The notes under the pieces are model-generated. The model ran no database searches and was not told the DNA's origin. It worked only from the letters and a program-made list of their open reading frames with translations. This document shows positions 21,076 through 28,230 of a stretch of DNA of 64,000 nt, in pieces. The position numbers and the translations under genes were made by a program. Within the stretch, counting starts at the first letter, position 1. Every line of letters starts with the position of its first letter. The DNA lies in the NCBI GenBank assembly GCA_013697915.1, contig JACCVY010000107.1, positions 1 to 64,000 of the forward strand. Reading direction: 5' to 3'. Source of the stretch: Blastocatellia bacterium (GTDB lineage: Bacteria > Acidobacteriota > Blastocatellia > Pyrinomonadales > Pyrinomonadaceae).

Positions 21076-21534
21076 CTACTCTTTCTTATCAACTGGTAAA
21101 CCGGAACTTTGCCAGGCGGCAAAACCACCTAGCAGCGCAGCCGCGTTATCAATTCCTTTTGCTTTGAGGTCGACCACCGCACGGGCGGACGTATGTTCGC
21201 TTGGTCAAGAACAGTAGGTGACGATGAGCTTGTCCTTTGGCAGCTCGCTCAGATGATTCGGAATGTCTGCTTCGGGAATTAACTTTGCGCCGTGAATGTG
21301 ACCGGCGTTGTAAGAAGCTTCATTGCGCACATCAATCACAACCGCCTGATTTTTAGCGAGCAAATCCTGGAGCTCGGCGGTAGTTATGCGGCGCGCGCCA
21401 TCACTGGGCGCGGGCGCGACAGGCGACCCACTTGCGACTGGGCCGCTTTTGTTTTTCTGTTCAGCAGAATTACAGCCGCTTTGCGCGACCGCGCCGAGAA
21501 GACTTAAAGCGAGGAAAGAAATAATAAGACGCAC
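21076..21534 (-). CDS. Rhodanese-domain lipoprotein with in-frame UGA (candidate selenoprotein)
   Basis: Translation from GTG 21534, which has GGAGG at 7-11 bases upstream, gives an N-terminal signal with a Cys near residue 21, a Pro/Ser linker, then a rhodanese domain (AVVIDVRNEASYNAGHIHGA). At codon 110 (21205-21207) the frame has TGA; reading on gives 42 more residues with the normal C-terminal half of the fold (SARAVVDLKAKGI, LLGGFAAWQSSGLP) and a TAG at 21076-21078. The active loop reads YC-S-U-P-S-E-H, where relatives have CSCPNE. Selenocysteine is therefore the best explanation; a Cys-to-stop mutation is the alternative. It is divergent from the oxidoreductase genes. A SECIS-like hairpin follows the UGA. 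Confidence 0.75.
21172..21206 (-). promoter_or_regulatory. Possible SECIS element after the UGA codon
   Basis: On the minus strand, directly after TGA, CCGC-CCGT-GCGG forms an apical hairpin whose loop lies 21-24 bases past the UGA, and GACCA (starting within the UGA) can pair with TGGTC. Bacterial SECIS elements sit immediately 3' of the UGA with an apical loop at a similar distance. The stem is short, and the 5' side has a large bulge, so this is a plausible but unproven match. Confidence 0.45.
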
Positions 21535-21657
21535 TGATAAACCTCCAGAAGACTCGTGAAACAGATAAACCACAGCTAATTTCTTACGGCCACGTGGTTT
21601 TGTCAATGCTGCCGTTCGTCGCTGACACCGCCAAGCTGGGGTGAATAATGAAATTAG

Positions 21658-21801
21658 GCCGCGGATTAACGCCAATAGCCTCGTATCTGAAAAACGATTA
21701 TTAAGAAAGGGGCGTGTGCCAATTGAATCTGGCCCTGACTTTATTTGAGTTCTCAATTTGAATATTGTTTGATCAGCGTTTATCCGCGTGAATCCGCGGC
21801 C
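21658..21801. repeat. MITE-like inverted repeat in the divergent promoter region
   Basis: GGCCGCGGATT (21658-21668) is the exact inverse of AATCCGCGGCC (21791-21801), and the bases inside the ends (AACGCC, GATCAGCG) are also partly complementary. The element is 144 bases and lies between the rhodanese gene and the ferredoxin/NrfD gene. Confidence 0.65.
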
Positions 21802-21860
21802 ATTCTTCTTACCCCCATGGTATAGTTCGCCCTCATCAACGAAATCCGAATTCGAGATTG

Positions 21861-23435
21861 ATGCACGAAGAGTCACAAAACCAGCCGGTGAAGTGGGCCA
21901 AGGTCATCGACCACACGCGTTGCATTGGCTGTCACGCGTGCACGACGGCCTGTAAATCTGAAAACCTGGTGCCGCTTTCGGTCACGCGCACTTACGTAAA
22001 GCACGTTGACGTGGGTGTGTTTCCCACTGTGCGCCGCGCGCATCAGGTCACCCGCTGCAATCAATGCGCGCATGCGCCGTGCGTCACCGCCTGCCCGACG
22101 ACCGCGATGTTTAACCGCGGCGACGGCATAGTCGATTTCGACAAATCAATCTGCATTGGCTGCAAGGCCTGTATGGCGGCCTGCCCTTACGACGCAATCT
22201 TTATCAATCCGGAAGATCATTCCGCTGAGAAATGTAACTTCTGCGCGCACCGCATCGACGTAGGTCTCGAGCCGGCGTGCGTAGTTGTTTGCCCGACGCA
22301 GGCGATTCTGATTGGCGATATGAACGATACTGAGTCGTACGTTTCACAAATCATTAATCGCGAAGCGGTCGCGGTTCGGCGACCCGAAAAAGAGACGCTG
22401 CCAAAACTTTTTTACAAAGGCGCGCACCAGGCGACGCTGGATCCGCTTGCGGCCCGGCGCCCCGACGGCGGACTTTTCATGTGGAGCGAGCAACAATGCA
22501 ATTCGGGTACGGTCGTATCAGGTAATCCGAACTACAACAACAGCTCGGCAGCGGCGTTGCTTTCTTATGACGTCGCACACGCAATTCCCTGGGACTGGAA
22601 AGTCAGCCTTTACACATGGACCAAAGGAATCGCGAGCGGCGTTTATCTTGTCGCCGCATTGCTGGTGCTATTTGGTTTTCTGAACGTAAACAATTCGATT
22701 TGGTTGTGGGCGACGCCGATCGTTTCCGGAGTATTTCTCGCGATCACCGGCGGGTTGTTGATTTGGGACCTGGAACATCCGGAACGCTTCTATCTGATCT
22801 TTACTCGACCGCAGTGGCGCAGTTGGCTGGTGAAAGGCGCGTTCATCATTGCGGGCTACACATTGGTGCTGGCGTTGCACTTCTTTGCAAGTTGGTTTGG
22901 ATCGCGAACTTTTCAGACCTGGCTGATGGTCGCAGGGATTCCCTTGTCGATAATGACCGCGGTGTACACGGCGTACCTTTTCGCGCAGGCGAAGGCGCGC
23001 GACATGTGGCAAAACCCGCTGCTACCTCCCCACCTGCTGGTGCAGGCATTACTGCTGGGTTCGGCCGTGCTGTTGCCATTGGCGATGTATCTTGAACTGA
23101 ACTCGACGCGTTCGGTTTCGATCATCTTGCCGTTGACCTGGTTGTTCGCAAGCGCGAGTTTGATTCACGTGTTGATGATCTGGGGCGAGGTGTCGTTGAC
23201 GCACCCGACCGCGCACGCGCGTTTGGCAATTTGGGAAATGGTGCGCGGCCGTTACAAAAGTGATTTCTGGATGGGAACGGTGCTTTCTCTGGTTGGGGGA
23301 CTGATTCCCTGGCTCGCTCTTCTCGGTGTCTTGTCACCGACCATGGGAGTCGCCGGCGCGCCGCTCGCGTTGATTGGCTTGATGCTATTCGAGAATGCTT
23401 ACGTGCAGGCGGGACAGTCAGTACCGTTAGCGTGA
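21861..23435 (+). CDS. Fused 4Fe-4S ferredoxin subunit and NrfD-type membrane subunit (SoeB-SoeC like)
   Basis: The N-terminal 200 residues hold four cysteine clusters (CIGCHACTTAC, CNQCAHAPCVTAC, CIGCKACMAAC, CNFCAH..CVVVC) that would bind four [4Fe-4S] centres. From about residue 245 come eight or more membrane helices of the NrfD/PsrC type, the quinone-reactive anchor. In most organisms these are two proteins; here they are one 525-residue chain. It should pass electrons between the molybdoenzyme encoded next and the quinone pool. ATG 21861 is used. There is no Tat signal, as expected for a subunit facing the cytoplasm. Confidence 0.88.
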   Translation: MHEESQNQPVKWAKVIDHTRCIGCHACTTACKSENLVPLSVTRTYVKHVDVGVFPTVRRAHQVTRCNQCAHAPCVTACPTTAMFNRGDGIVDFDKSICIGCKACMAACPYDAIFINPEDHSAEKCNFCAHRIDVGLEPACVVVCPTQAILIGDMNDTESYVSQIINREAVAVRRPEKETLPKLFYKGAHQATLDPLAARRPDGGLFMWSEQQCNSGTVVSGNPNYNNSSAAALLSYDVAHAIPWDWKVSLYTWTKGIASGVYLVAALLVLFGFLNVNNSIWLWATPIVSGVFLAITGGLLIWDLEHPERFYLIFTRPQWRSWLVKGAFIIAGYTLVLALHFFASWFGSRTFQTWLMVAGIPLSIMTAVYTAYLFAQAKARDMWQNPLLPPHLLVQALLLGSAVLLPLAMYLELNSTRSVSIILPLTWLFASASLIHVLMIWGEVSLTHPTAHARLAIWEMVRGRYKSDFWMGTVLSLVGGLIPWLALLGVLSPTMGVAGAPLALIGLMLFENAYVQAGQSVPLA

Positions 23436-23636: not shown

Positions 23637-26627
23637 ATGAAAAACGACGAAAGCGCCAGTGAAACTTTCTATCCCGGCCCGAGCCGCAGTCATCTCGCGG
23701 CGTTTCCGCCGAAGGAGCGCTGGGACAATTGGACTGAGCTTGATTCTCAAGCGTGGCCTAAACGCAAAGAGCGCCATTATTCATTAGTTCCCACCACCTG
23801 TTTCAACTGCGAATCCGCCTGCGGCCTGCTGGCCTACATCGACAAGGTCACCGGCGAGGTGCAGAAGTTTGAAGGGAATCCCGAGCATCCTGGTTCGCGC
23901 GGACGCAACTGCGCCAAAGGTCCGGCAACCCTCAACCAGATTCACGATCCCGACCGTATTCTTTATCCACTTAAACGCAGCGGCAAACGCGGCGAAGGAA
24001 AATGGGAACAGACAACGTGGGACGCAGCTCTTGATGACATTGCCGCACGCATTCGCAAAGCGATCGTCGAAAATCGCCGCAACGAGATCATGTATCACGT
24101 CGGCCGTCCCGGTGAAGATGGTTTCACCGAACGCATCCTCGCCGCGTGGGGCGTTGACGGTCACAACTCGCACACAAACATTTGTTCATCCGGCAGCCGC
24201 GAAGGTTACCAACTCTGGATGGGACTCGATCGTCCCAGTCCCGATCACGCCAACGCGAAAGTCATACTGCTGATCAGCGCTCACCTCGAGTCTGGTCATT
24301 ACTTCAACCCACACGCGCAACGTGTCATCGACGGCAAAGCCAACGGCGCGAAGTTGATCGTGTTCGACACGCGCCTGTCACACACAGCCACCCATGCCGA
24401 CTACTGGGTCGCGCCCTACCCAGGTTCGGAAGGCGCGATGCTGCTCGCGATCGCGAACTACCTGATTCAGAACGATATATACAATCGCGAGTTTGTGAAG
24501 CGCTGGTGGAACTGGGAGGAATGCCTTGAAAGCAGTTCCGAGTTTCGAGTTCCGAGTTCCAAGTTCGAGCCGACCATTGCAGAAGGGGTTAAAGAACACC
24601 AGGATTCGCGCGCTGATTCGCAGGTCGGGAAGGGCGGCTTGCCCCCGCCAACCTTTGAACAATTTGAAGATCAACTAAAGCAACTCTACTCCGAATACAC
24701 TTTTGAATTCGCAGCCCAGGAATCGGGTGTTGACGCCAAAACAATCGAAGAGATCGCAAAACTAGTCGCGACGGCAGGCACGCGTTTTTCCAGTCACAAC
24801 TGGCGCAGCGTTACGTCCGGCGTCAGCGGCGGCTGGGCGGTGGCGCGGGCGGTCTTTATGTTGAACGCTTTGCTGGGCGCGGTGGCGACCGAGGGCGGCG
24901 TGTTTCCCAATGCCTGGAACAAGTTTGTGCCTAAGCCGATCTACACGCCGCCGCATCCGCAGATGTGGAACGAGACGCAATGGCCGCGCGAGTACCCACT
25001 GTCTATGCATGAGATGTCGTTTCTGTTGCCGCATTTCCTGAAAGACGGGCGCGCCAAGCTCGACGTTTATTTCACGCGAGTATACAACCCGGTATGGACC
25101 AATCCCGACGGGTTTTCATGGATCGAAATGTTGACCGATCCCGATCTGGTCGGCTGTTATGTCGCGCTGACGCCGACGTGGAACGAGACGTCGTATTTCG
25201 CCGATTATGTCCTGCCGATGGGCCATGGCTCGGAACGCCACGACATTCATTCTTATGAGACTCACGATGCGCAATGGCTCGGCTTTCGCCAGCCGGTGAA
25301 AAAAGCGGACAAGCAGCGCGAGGGCGAAGAAATCGATGATACACGTCAGGTCAATCCGGGTGAGGTTTGGGAAGAGAACGAGTTTTGGATGGAACTGACG
25401 TGGCGCATCGATCCCGACGGCAGTCTCGGCATTCGCCAATACGTTGAATCGAAAAAGAATCCCGGCACGCGGCTGAGTGTGGATGAATACTACGAATGGA
25501 TTTTTGACAACTCGGTTCCGGGTTTGCCGGCCAAAGCTGCGGCTGAAGGTTTGACGCCGCTGGAATTCATGAGGCGCTACGGCGCGTATGAAGTGAAGCA
25601 AAAGGTCGGGAAGATATACGACGAGCTTGTTCCCGAAACCGAGCTCGAAGACATACGCGAGGATGCGCGCGGTCGTGTGTTCACGCGCGCCGCCAAGCCC
25701 GCTTCACCAAACGTCGTTCCCGTTCCCAGTCCCGATGGCGACGATGAGGGACGACGGCTCGTCGGCGTAAAAGTTGGGAACGAAATCAAACGCGGATTTC
25801 CGACGCCGAGCGGCAAGCTGGAATTCTATTCGCGCACCCTCGCTGATTGGGGCTGGCCAGAGTTTGCTTTGCCAACCTACATCAAGAGTCACGTTCATCC
25901 GGATAATCTTGAACCGGATCAAACAATCCTGATTTCAACGTTTCGTTTGCCGGTGCAGATTCATACGCGCAGCGCCAACGCCAAGTGGCTTGACGAGATT
26001 GCGCACACGAATCCGTTGTGGATACATACGAGCCATGCGGCAAGACTCGGTGTGCGCACCGGCGATCTGCTGCGGGTAGAAACTGAAATTGGTTACTACG
26101 TGGTGCGCGCCTGGGTTACGGAAGGCATTCGGCCCGGAATCGTTGCCTGCAGCCATCACATGGGCCGCTGGAAAACGGGCGAACAAGCTGAGCAGGGACA
26201 ACGCCAGCTAATGGCCACCGTGAAGTTGGCCCATGAAGGAACCGAGTGGGGACTCAAACGCGAAAAGGGCGCCGAGCCTTACGAGTCGAGCGACCCTGAC
26301 ACAATGCGCATTTGGTGGAGCGACGTCGGAGTTCACCAGAACATGACTTTTCCAGTTCACCCCGATCCGATCTCCGGAATGCACTGCTGGCACCAGGCAG
26401 TGCGCGTCACGCGTGCAAAGGAAGGCGACAACACGGGCGATGTGTTCGTTGACACCGCTAAGTCGCGCGAGGTTTATCGAAAGTGGCTGGCCCTGACACG
26501 GCCCGCGGACCAGTTTTCACCTGACGGAACGCGCCGGCCTTACTGGATGCTGCGGCCCTTGAAGCCGGCGCGCGAGTATTATAGATTGCCGGACCAAGAG
26601 CCCGACTTGCTCAAGAGTCTCGTCTAA
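23637..26627 (+). CDS. Molybdopterin (bis-MGD) oxidoreductase catalytic subunit, SoeA-like
   Basis: This 996-residue DMSO-reductase-family protein binds one [4Fe-4S] cluster through C55, C58, C62 and C92 (CFNCESACG..GRNCAKGP). The segment HTNICSSGSREGYQLW holds the probable Mo ligand region (Cys183 or a neighbouring Ser). There is no Tat signal, so the enzyme is probably cytoplasmic. Length, N-terminus and linkage to ferredoxin and NrfD parts resemble SoeABC sulfite dehydrogenase, which oxidises sulfite to sulfate; polysulfide or other sulfur substrates cannot be excluded. Residues about 300-338 are a repeat-derived insertion absent from relatives as I know them. Neighbouring rhodanese genes support a sulfur role. 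Confidence 0.82.
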   Translation: MKNDESASETFYPGPSRSHLAAFPPKERWDNWTELDSQAWPKRKERHYSLVPTTCFNCESACGLLAYIDKVTGEVQKFEGNPEHPGSRGRNCAKGPATLNQIHDPDRILYPLKRSGKRGEGKWEQTTWDAALDDIAARIRKAIVENRRNEIMYHVGRPGEDGFTERILAAWGVDGHNSHTNICSSGSREGYQLWMGLDRPSPDHANAKVILLISAHLESGHYFNPHAQRVIDGKANGAKLIVFDTRLSHTATHADYWVAPYPGSEGAMLLAIANYLIQNDIYNREFVKRWWNWEECLESSSEFRVPSSKFEPTIAEGVKEHQDSRADSQVGKGGLPPPTFEQFEDQLKQLYSEYTFEFAAQESGVDAKTIEEIAKLVATAGTRFSSHNWRSVTSGVSGGWAVARAVFMLNALLGAVATEGGVFPNAWNKFVPKPIYTPPHPQMWNETQWPREYPLSMHEMSFLLPHFLKDGRAKLDVYFTRVYNPVWTNPDGFSWIEMLTDPDLVGCYVALTPTWNETSYFADYVLPMGHGSERHDIHSYETHDAQWLGFRQPVKKADKQREGEEIDDTRQVNPGEVWEENEFWMELTWRIDPDGSLGIRQYVESKKNPGTRLSVDEYYEWIFDNSVPGLPAKAAAEGLTPLEFMRRYGAYEVKQKVGKIYDELVPETELEDIREDARGRVFTRAAKPASPNVVPVPSPDGDDEGRRLVGVKVGNEIKRGFPTPSGKLEFYSRTLADWGWPEFALPTYIKSHVHPDNLEPDQTILISTFRLPVQIHTRSANAKWLDEIAHTNPLWIHTSHAARLGVRTGDLLRVETEIGYYVVRAWVTEGIRPGIVACSHHMGRWKTGEQAEQGQRQLMATVKLAHEGTEWGLKREKGAEPYESSDPDTMRIWWSDVGVHQNMTFPVHPDPISGMHCWHQAVRVTRAKEGDNTGDVFVDTAKSREVYRKWLALTRPADQFSPDGTRRPYWMLRPLKPAREYYRLPDQEPDLLKSLV
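24535..24648. repeat. In-frame repeat insertion inside the SoeA-like gene
   Basis: Bases 24535-24570 are a run of AGTTCCGAGTT/TCGAGTTCC units, and 24623-24648 (GGTCGGGAAGGGCGGCTT then GCCCCCGC) match the right arm of the intergenic family B repeats. Together they encode about 38 low-complexity residues (SSSEFRVPSSKFE ... VGKGGLPPP) without breaking the frame. Confidence 0.75.
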
Positions 26628-26790: not shown

Positions 26791-28230
26791 ATGTACTTCA
26801 AACAATTCTATCTTGGCTGTTTAGCCCACGCTTCGTACCTGCTCGGTTCGGAAGGCGAGGCGGCGGTAGTCGATCCGCAACGCGATGTAGACGACTACAT
26901 CAATGAAGCCGTCGCGCACGGTTTCAAAATCAAATACATTTTTGAGACTCATCTCCACGCTGATTTTGTTAGCGGCCATCGCGAACTCGCAGCCCGCACC
27001 GGCGCCGAGATTGTTTTCAGCCGGACAGCTCAAGCGACGTTTAAGCATCACGCTGTCAAAGAAGATGACGAGATCAAATTCGGCAAAGTGATTCTGCGCA
27101 TCATGGAAACTCCCGGGCACACGCCCGAAAGCGTTTGCATTCTGGTGACCGACACCGAGGTTTCAGATCAGCCGCAGAAAATTTTGACCGGAGATACGCT
27201 GTTCATTGGCGATGTTGGTCGACCCGACCTTGCCGGCGGCAAAGGTTACACGCCGCAGATAATGGCCGCGATGATGTACGACACGTTGCACGAAAAACTT
27301 TTGCAGCTCGCAGATGATGTAGAAGTTTATCCAGCGCATGGCGCCGGTTCGATGTGCGGCAAGAGCATGTCAAATGAGAGATCTTCAACAATAGGTCTGC
27401 AGCGCAAGTTTAACTATGCGCTCAAGCCAATGGCCAAAGACGAGTTCGTTCACATGATGACTGCTGATCTGGCCGAAGCGCCTGCTTATTTTCCTAAAGA
27501 CGCAGAAATTAACCGCACTGGGGCGCAAGCTTTAAGTCACTTACACAAGCCCGAACCGTTAACGCCCGAACAGGTTCGGGACCTGACGTCGCGAACTAAC
27601 AGTTTGCTATACGACGATTCGCAAACTGACAGTTTGCGCTACGTCGTTCTCGATGTGCGTACGGCCGCAGAGTTTGGCGCAGGTCATGTACCCGGCTCGC
27701 TGAACGTTGGTTTGGGGGGACAGTTTGCGATGTGGGCCGGCACGCTGATTCCTCTGCCGGCGCCCATCGTGATCGTGGCAGAAGGGGAGTCGCAGGTTGA
27801 AGAAGCGCAAATGCGTCTGGCGCGGGTCGGCAGCGAGAATGTCAAAGGCTATCTCGCGGGTGGCGTTTACGAGTGGCAACGTTCCGGGTTTGAACTCGCG
27901 ACCGTTCCGCAAATTACTGTCGATGAATTGAGCGCGCTAATTTTAGAACAACCCCGGTTGCAGATACTCGACGTGCGCCGTCCGCCCGAGTACGCCAGCG
28001 GACACGTGCCGCGCGCGCTTCATGCGCCACTTTCAACCCTCTCACAAACCTTCAAAAACCTAACCCTCGATCCCGCCAAACTAACTGCTGTGATTTGTGC
28101 CGGCGGGTTTCGCTCAAGCGCGGCCACCAGCATCCTTCAGCAAAATGGCTTCGCGAATCTAGTGAACGTCGCCGGCGGTACAACTGCCTGGATCAACGCG
28201 GGCCACCCCGTGCAGATACCCAACTCGTAA
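26791..28230 (+). CDS. Metallo-beta-lactamase hydrolase with two rhodanese domains
   Basis: The first 250 residues are an ETHE1/BlhA-type metallo-beta-lactamase domain with metal ligands in ETHLHADFVSGH, TPGHTPES, GDTLFIGDVGRPDL and YPAHGAGS. Two rhodanese domains follow (about 285-365 and 375-479); only the second has an active-site Cys (VICAGGFRSS), while the first appears inactive. Proteins of this design are persulfide dioxygenase-like enzymes that oxidise glutathione persulfide to sulfite, which would feed the adjacent sulfite-type oxidoreductase. Residues about 267-283, between the lactamase and first rhodanese domain, derive from two family A palindromes. Confidence 0.88.
   Translation: MYFKQFYLGCLAHASYLLGSEGEAAVVDPQRDVDDYINEAVAHGFKIKYIFETHLHADFVSGHRELAARTGAEIVFSRTAQATFKHHAVKEDDEIKFGKVILRIMETPGHTPESVCILVTDTEVSDQPQKILTGDTLFIGDVGRPDLAGGKGYTPQIMAAMMYDTLHEKLLQLADDVEVYPAHGAGSMCGKSMSNERSSTIGLQRKFNYALKPMAKDEFVHMMTADLAEAPAYFPKDAEINRTGAQALSHLHKPEPLTPEQVRDLTSRTNSLLYDDSQTDSLRYVVLDVRTAAEFGAGHVPGSLNVGLGGQFAMWAGTLIPLPAPIVIVAEGESQVEEAQMRLARVGSENVKGYLAGGVYEWQRSGFELATVPQITVDELSALILEQPRLQILDVRRPPEYASGHVPRALHAPLSTLSQTFKNLTLDPAKLTAVICAGGFRSSAATSILQQNGFANLVNVAGGTTAWINAGHPVQIPNS
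27591..27637. repeat. Two family A palindromes inside the MBL-rhodanese gene
   Basis: GCGAACTAACAGTTTGC (27591-27607) and GCAAACTGACAGTTTGC (27621-27637) match the intergenic family A repeats at 11838-11969 and 49763-49838. They encode part of TSRTNSLLYDDSQTDSLRY in the interdomain linker and leave the frame open. Confidence 0.85.

Follow-up and report, generated by a model that had tools for sequence, protein, structure and literature searches.

An in-frame TGA on the minus strand of the window, as we call the whole 64,000-nucleotide stretch of DNA analysed here, falls within a gene for a small rhodanese and raises the question of whether it disables the gene, ends it, or is read as selenocysteine (Sec). 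A sequence-only reading of this locus had proposed a rhodanese lipoprotein that is a probable selenoprotein. Here we report a comparative analysis, from which we conclude that the gene almost certainly encodes a genuine selenoprotein, an exported single-domain rhodanese with Sec at residue 110. On comparative evidence the identity of the UGA as a Sec codon, the SECIS element and the presence of the Sec machinery are all established.

Gene and protein

The gene occupies positions 21076-21534 on the minus strand (the strand was absent from the sequence-only reading) and specifies an exported rhodanese of 152 residues. It starts with GTG at 21534-21532 and stops with TAG at 21078-21076; its sole in-frame stop is the TGA at 21207-21205, codon 110, after which 42 codons remain, as had been claimed. 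With the TGA read as a residue the protein is MRLIISFLALSLLGAVAQSGCNSAEQ...IVTYCSUPSEHTSARAVVDLKAKG...ALLGGFAAWQSSGLPVDKKE, and the sequence round the UGA is YCSUPSEHTSA. The ribosome binding site noted earlier at the GTG is a Shine-Dalgarno GGAGG (21542-21546, minus strand) with a spacing of 7 nt. Translation of the plus strand of 21076-21534 revealed no coding sequence.

Ordinary gene callers stop at the UGA or miss the gene, and misannotation is therefore likely throughout the Pyrinomonadaceae; the window rhodanese is probably misannotated at its start as well as at its end. A plain ORF caller places here an ORF of 223 residues (window 21205-21876, minus strand), which starts at an upstream GTG and ends at the UGA.

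Positions 21472-21534 (minus strand) encode a signal peptide, in which Cys21 is the probable lipobox cysteine. A loose lipobox pattern was matched in 24 of 35 relatives; the window copy itself reads AQSG-C21, which is non-canonical against [L][AST][GA]C. We take the protein to be exported and probably held by a lipid anchor.

Rhodanese domain and active-site loop

The UGA lies inside the rhodanese domain, since Pfam PF00581 spans residues 51-143 (21106-21384, minus strand; 62.4 bits, cut-off 22.2, E 6e-17). AlphaFold2 predicted a confident rhodanese fold over residues 45-152, with a mean pLDDT of 84 overall and values above 95 in most domain blocks, and the PDB structures closest to the model, at Z 16-19, were those of GlpE and of rhodanese domains in persulfide-related enzymes. 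According to the model and the alignment, the active-site loop comprises residues 108-113, between a strand (103-107) and a helix (114-125). Its first residue, Cys108 (codon at 21211-21213, minus strand), is invariant in 71 of 71 UGA members and in our protein alignment A2, and aligns with the loop cysteine of a solved rhodanese. A PF00581 match over the gathering cut-off, a rhodanese fold and a cysteine opening the active-site loop together place the protein in the rhodanese superfamily.

GlpE and the persulfide dioxygenase-rhodanese fusions (1gmx, 5ve3, 3tp9) have the same fold as the window protein, at 24-32% identity in structural alignment, and their catalytic cysteine opens the equivalent loop. 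They differ from it in having no Sec two residues past that cysteine, where the window protein carries Sec110.

Conservation of the UGA codon

Homologous loci were fetched and aligned with TGA read as a residue, an alignment that the sequence-only reading had proposed for this codon. Either UGA or Cys occurs at exactly the position of codon 110 (21205-21207, minus strand), with the frame intact. TGA was found there in 71 distinct genes, or 69 once identical sites are removed. Their carriers are nearly all Blastocatellia (Acidobacteriota), plus one Desulfuromonas, and the closest named relatives of the window protein belong to the Pyrinomonadaceae within the same class and phylum. Matches containing TGA occur in at least 93 of the 145 Acidobacteriota genomes searched and, within the Pyrinomonadaceae-type family, in at least 79 of 89 genomes at one or more per genome, although a few of these matches may be other paralogues. 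The predicted CxU rhodanese selenoprotein is, by these counts, widespread in the Pyrinomonadaceae. A search of viral contigs for relatives of the window rhodanese found none.

Viewed singly, a recent nonsense mutation or a miscalled base would look just like this lone TGA in an otherwise open frame. The same-column TGA in 71 distinct genes of many genera, whose frames are intact and whose C-terminal halves are conserved, excludes chance and so refutes a pseudogene or sequencing error, to which we leave virtually no probability.

It could instead be argued that the UGA is a true stop, that a truncated protein of 109 residues is made and that the downstream part is a remnant. TGA is otherwise an ordinary stop in this genome, as 10 of the 29 stop-to-stop frames in the window that reach 300 codons or more end with it, which also makes a general reassignment of TGA unlikely. 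Against a true stop, the 42 codons past the UGA keep their protein conservation in the homologues, including a GG motif, and form the final part of the rhodanese domain; moreover, neither TAA nor TAG was seen at this column in any aligned homologue (0 cases). We consider termination at codon 110 highly improbable.

Where the column does vary, Cys is encoded, by TGC or TGT. The UGA had been said to replace the second Cys of a CSCPNE-type loop; a Cys at this column in relatives is borne out, while the forms actually observed are CSCANE, CSCPAE, CSCKNE and CACPSE, so that CSCPNE describes the type of the family only. In genus g9, the near-complete genomes G085 and G087 lack any SelA or SelB over cut-off, and show only low tRNA-Sec scores, of a level common to every genome. 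Their homologues carry Cys (YCSCGTE and YCSCPAE) at the column where UGA stands in SelB-bearing g9 genomes such as G088. Two further genomes that lack a Sec system, G035 and G055, were rejected as similar cases, since in both the best match is an ordinary CRTGRR rhodanese and not an orthologue.

Within the window's own genus, the syntenic orthologue L028 (G007:C122) has Cys although its genome contains selA, selB and tRNA-Sec, apparently a change from Sec to Cys. Paired UGA rhodanese paralogues, about 700 bases apart or less, occur in four genomes (L031, L032, L045 and L048).

Selenocysteine machinery

The source assembly is 4.5 Mb in size and 97% complete. The sequence-only reading had named selA, selB, selD and tRNA-Sec as the genes to look for, and all four Sec genes, selA, selB, selC and selD, are within this genome. 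SelA scores 541.9 bits (cut-off 268), SelB 356.8 bits (cut-off 242) and SelD 347.4 bits (cut-off 125); the tRNA-Sec scores 67.7 bits and is called SeC by ARAGORN, with anticodon tca (UCA). With the full machinery in the genome, UGA at one codon in 71 homologues and intact frames in the orthologues, both outcomes that would have told against the earlier proposal of a 152-residue Sec protein are absent, and it stands. SelD is itself a selenoprotein, with UGA in its catalytic motif SGU (G000:C265:5983-6912; L082:1984-2913; minus strand).

Some fragmented genomes contain the UGA gene with no SelB over cut-off. All six of those checked have SelA and tRNA-Sec, and hence the missing SelB is likely to reflect assembly gaps. 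One other genome, G015, has four strong tRNA-Sec candidates of 67-69 bits (C15:157847, C6:100783, C6:98652 and C11:35942).

The conserved frame demands read-through as such and nothing more, and would equally be expected if Trp or Cys were inserted through a suppressor tRNA or an altered code. Such a route is opposed by the complete Sec system with its UCA tRNA-Sec, by the presence of Cys where relatives have lost the Sec genes, by the common use of TGA as a stop in the window, and by a SECIS under strong synonymous constraint (described below). We give it a vanishingly small chance, and retain Sec as the residue at codon 110.

The SECIS hairpin

A hairpin with its loop 21-24 bases past the UGA had been put forward as a possible SECIS. 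We located it at 21174-21188 (minus strand), with a stem of 5 bp (CCGCC/GGUGG) and a 5-nt loop CGUGC (21183-21179) that begins after a spacing of 21 nt from the UGA. Bacterial SECIS criteria give a 3-9-nt loop whose first two positions include G, a stem of 4-16 bp, a spacing of 16-37 nt and an energy of -7.5 or lower (PMC13188914); the window hairpin agrees with these at -11.3 kcal/mol for a 48-mer. Its single-sequence folding energy is unexceptional for its composition (z -0.07), and we therefore drew no evidence from energy alone.

Consensus folding of 66 relatives with RNAalifold, from which the window sequence was excluded, returned exactly one stem, with five pairs and a five-base loop, 21 nt past the UGA. 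Across the relatives 95.5% of stem cells are paired, and the pairing is lost when the partner strand of the hairpin is slid along. Compensatory (double-change) cells number 13, as compared with 2.1 in shuffles. On the protein tree the outermost stem base changes twice, each time with compensation on the same branch, the change in this pair being one between the Ser codons AGC and TCC together with a base five codons on. Two further double changes were found at the second stem pair, where base composition may account for part of the covariation; independent compensatory events on the tree number only four.

The strongest sign of a SECIS in these sequences is codon choice. Synonymous diversity, scaled to family-wide codon usage, falls to ratios of 0.00, 0.20, 0.10 and 0.38 at residues 117-120 and 0.52 at Ser116, versus about 0.5-1.2 elsewhere in the gene. 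All 70 genes with Ala at residue 117 use GCC for it, a codon with a 29% share elsewhere, and residue 118 (Arg, Gly or Ser) is encoded by CGT, GGT or AGT in 66 of 71 genes, which supplies the G-U of the loop.

A covariance model built from the relatives without the window sequence found the SECIS site at 58.7 bits (E 1.8e-13), and the next match in the window scored 9.7 bits. The second match in the genome, at 37.6 bits, belongs to a second UGA rhodanese, the sequence of which is among the 66 of the model. Weaker matches on contigs C136 and C261 fall outside coding frames, and we attribute them to chance. Consensus folding, compensatory changes and the local loss of synonymous diversity support the interpretation of the hairpin as a SECIS, on which SelB would deliver Sec-tRNA(UCA) to codon 110.

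The second UGA rhodanese of this genome is encoded at G000:C80:38411-38734 (L081:1512-1835) on the minus strand, with the loop YCTUPHEASSA. It is nearest to the NCBIfam family NF041203, at 92.5 bits.

Relation to known selenoproteins

Selenoproteins of rhodanese type have been predicted since 2005 (PMC1088965, PMC2398784), as the sequence-only reading had noted. The best curated match of the window protein is NF041203 (rhodanese_LYCAU, 'rhodanese-related (seleno)protein'), with which it shares the rhodanese domain and a CxU in the active-site loop, the family having Sec or Cys at this position; the window motif is C-S-U. The match, at 85.4 bits, falls under the cut-off of 115, and among the UGA homologues tested L110 alone passes (125.5 bits), the others scoring 75-103 bits. 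The loop of the window family is Y-C-[STA]-U, compared with the L-Y-C-A-U in the name of NF041203, and in contrast to that family the window protein is predicted to be exported with a probable lipid anchor. It joins the known CxU rhodanese selenoproteins outside the NF041203 equivalog, and the kind of system is not new.

In a review the CxU of NF041203 type is form 3 of the rhodanese-like selenoproteins, next to forms 1, 2 and 4 (UxxS, UxxG) and TsoB, form 5 (UxxxxU) (PMC13188914). These other forms and TsoB have Sec in a rhodanese-like domain, as here, but in a different Sec motif. TsoB is a rhodanese/DsbD fusion, to which the window protein is only weakly matched (33 bits versus a cut-off of 805).

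A 2006 survey recorded only four selenoproteins from three families in the Acidobacteria (PMC1794560), in contrast to which a single family here has TGA matches in at least 79 of 89 Pyrinomonadaceae-type genomes. Our full-text search of papers free of subscription found no paper on a Pyrinomonadaceae selenoprotein or a CSU rhodanese, and the literature searched held neither a description of the breadth of CxU rhodaneses in the Blastocatellia nor biochemistry of a CxU rhodanese. In the Pyrinomonadaceae, a family known from soils, the present gene offers a compact and testable CxU rhodanese case, with a SECIS that has clear evolutionary support.

Gene neighbourhood and proposed function

In the window's genus the rhodanese gene is divergent from three genes on the plus strand: a fusion of a 4Fe-4S ferredoxin and NrfD (21858-23435; type B and C subunits of polysulfide/tetrathionate/DMSO reductases), a molybdopterin oxidoreductase (23637-26627; best NCBIfam match PhsA-type, far under its cut-off) and a persulfide dioxygenase-like protein with a metallo-beta-lactamase fold and two rhodanese domains (26791-28230). 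The joining of the ferredoxin subunit to the NrfD membrane subunit at 21858-23435 is a natural fusion. A partnership with the adjacent sulfur oxidoreductase had been suggested from the window. It has only partial support: where the flanking DNA is long enough, most members of the genus have the NrfD fusion beside the rhodanese gene, as do some other genera; elsewhere among other genera the rhodanese gene is found beside different genes, including selB. From this arrangement a link with the oxidation or reduction of sulfur compounds appears plausible.

Cys108, at the canonical position of the rhodanese cysteine, and Sec110 would form a CxU redox pair acting on sulfane sulfur or disulfides outside the cytoplasm, a role to which we assign about an even chance. 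By way of a selenenylsulfide, Sec110 could speed the attack on a Cys persulfide or its release, with the pair cycling between persulfide, selenenylsulfide and reduced forms, and the rhodanese may serve the divergently encoded molybdopterin/NrfD sulfur-compound oxidoreductase.

With Sec inserted all the same, the protein might act mainly as a peroxide or disulfide reductase, with CxU on a rhodanese scaffold, and not in sulfur transfer. Its loop is without the CxxGxR pattern of thiosulfate-using rhodaneses, and CxC or CxU is typical of thiol-disulfide chemistry. A redox role is also what a review expects of most uncharacterised selenoproteins (PMC9312934). The neighbourhood in its own genus, with a sulfur-compound-type oxidoreductase and a second rhodanese protein, speaks against such a reductase, which we regard as a serious possibility at somewhat below even likelihood.

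The most specific form of the sulfur-handling role, which we hold tentatively and consider rather unlikely in full, would be a Sec-containing protein, held outside the cytoplasm by a lipid anchor, that carries sulfane sulfur or reduces persulfides and feeds the molybdopterin/NrfD oxidoreductase throughout the Pyrinomonadaceae; beside selB in one genus, it may help to keep the Sec system. In three genomes of that genus, g3 (L036/G044, L043/G065 and L047/G074), the UGA rhodanese gene directly follows selB on the same strand, at a distance of 117-374 bp.
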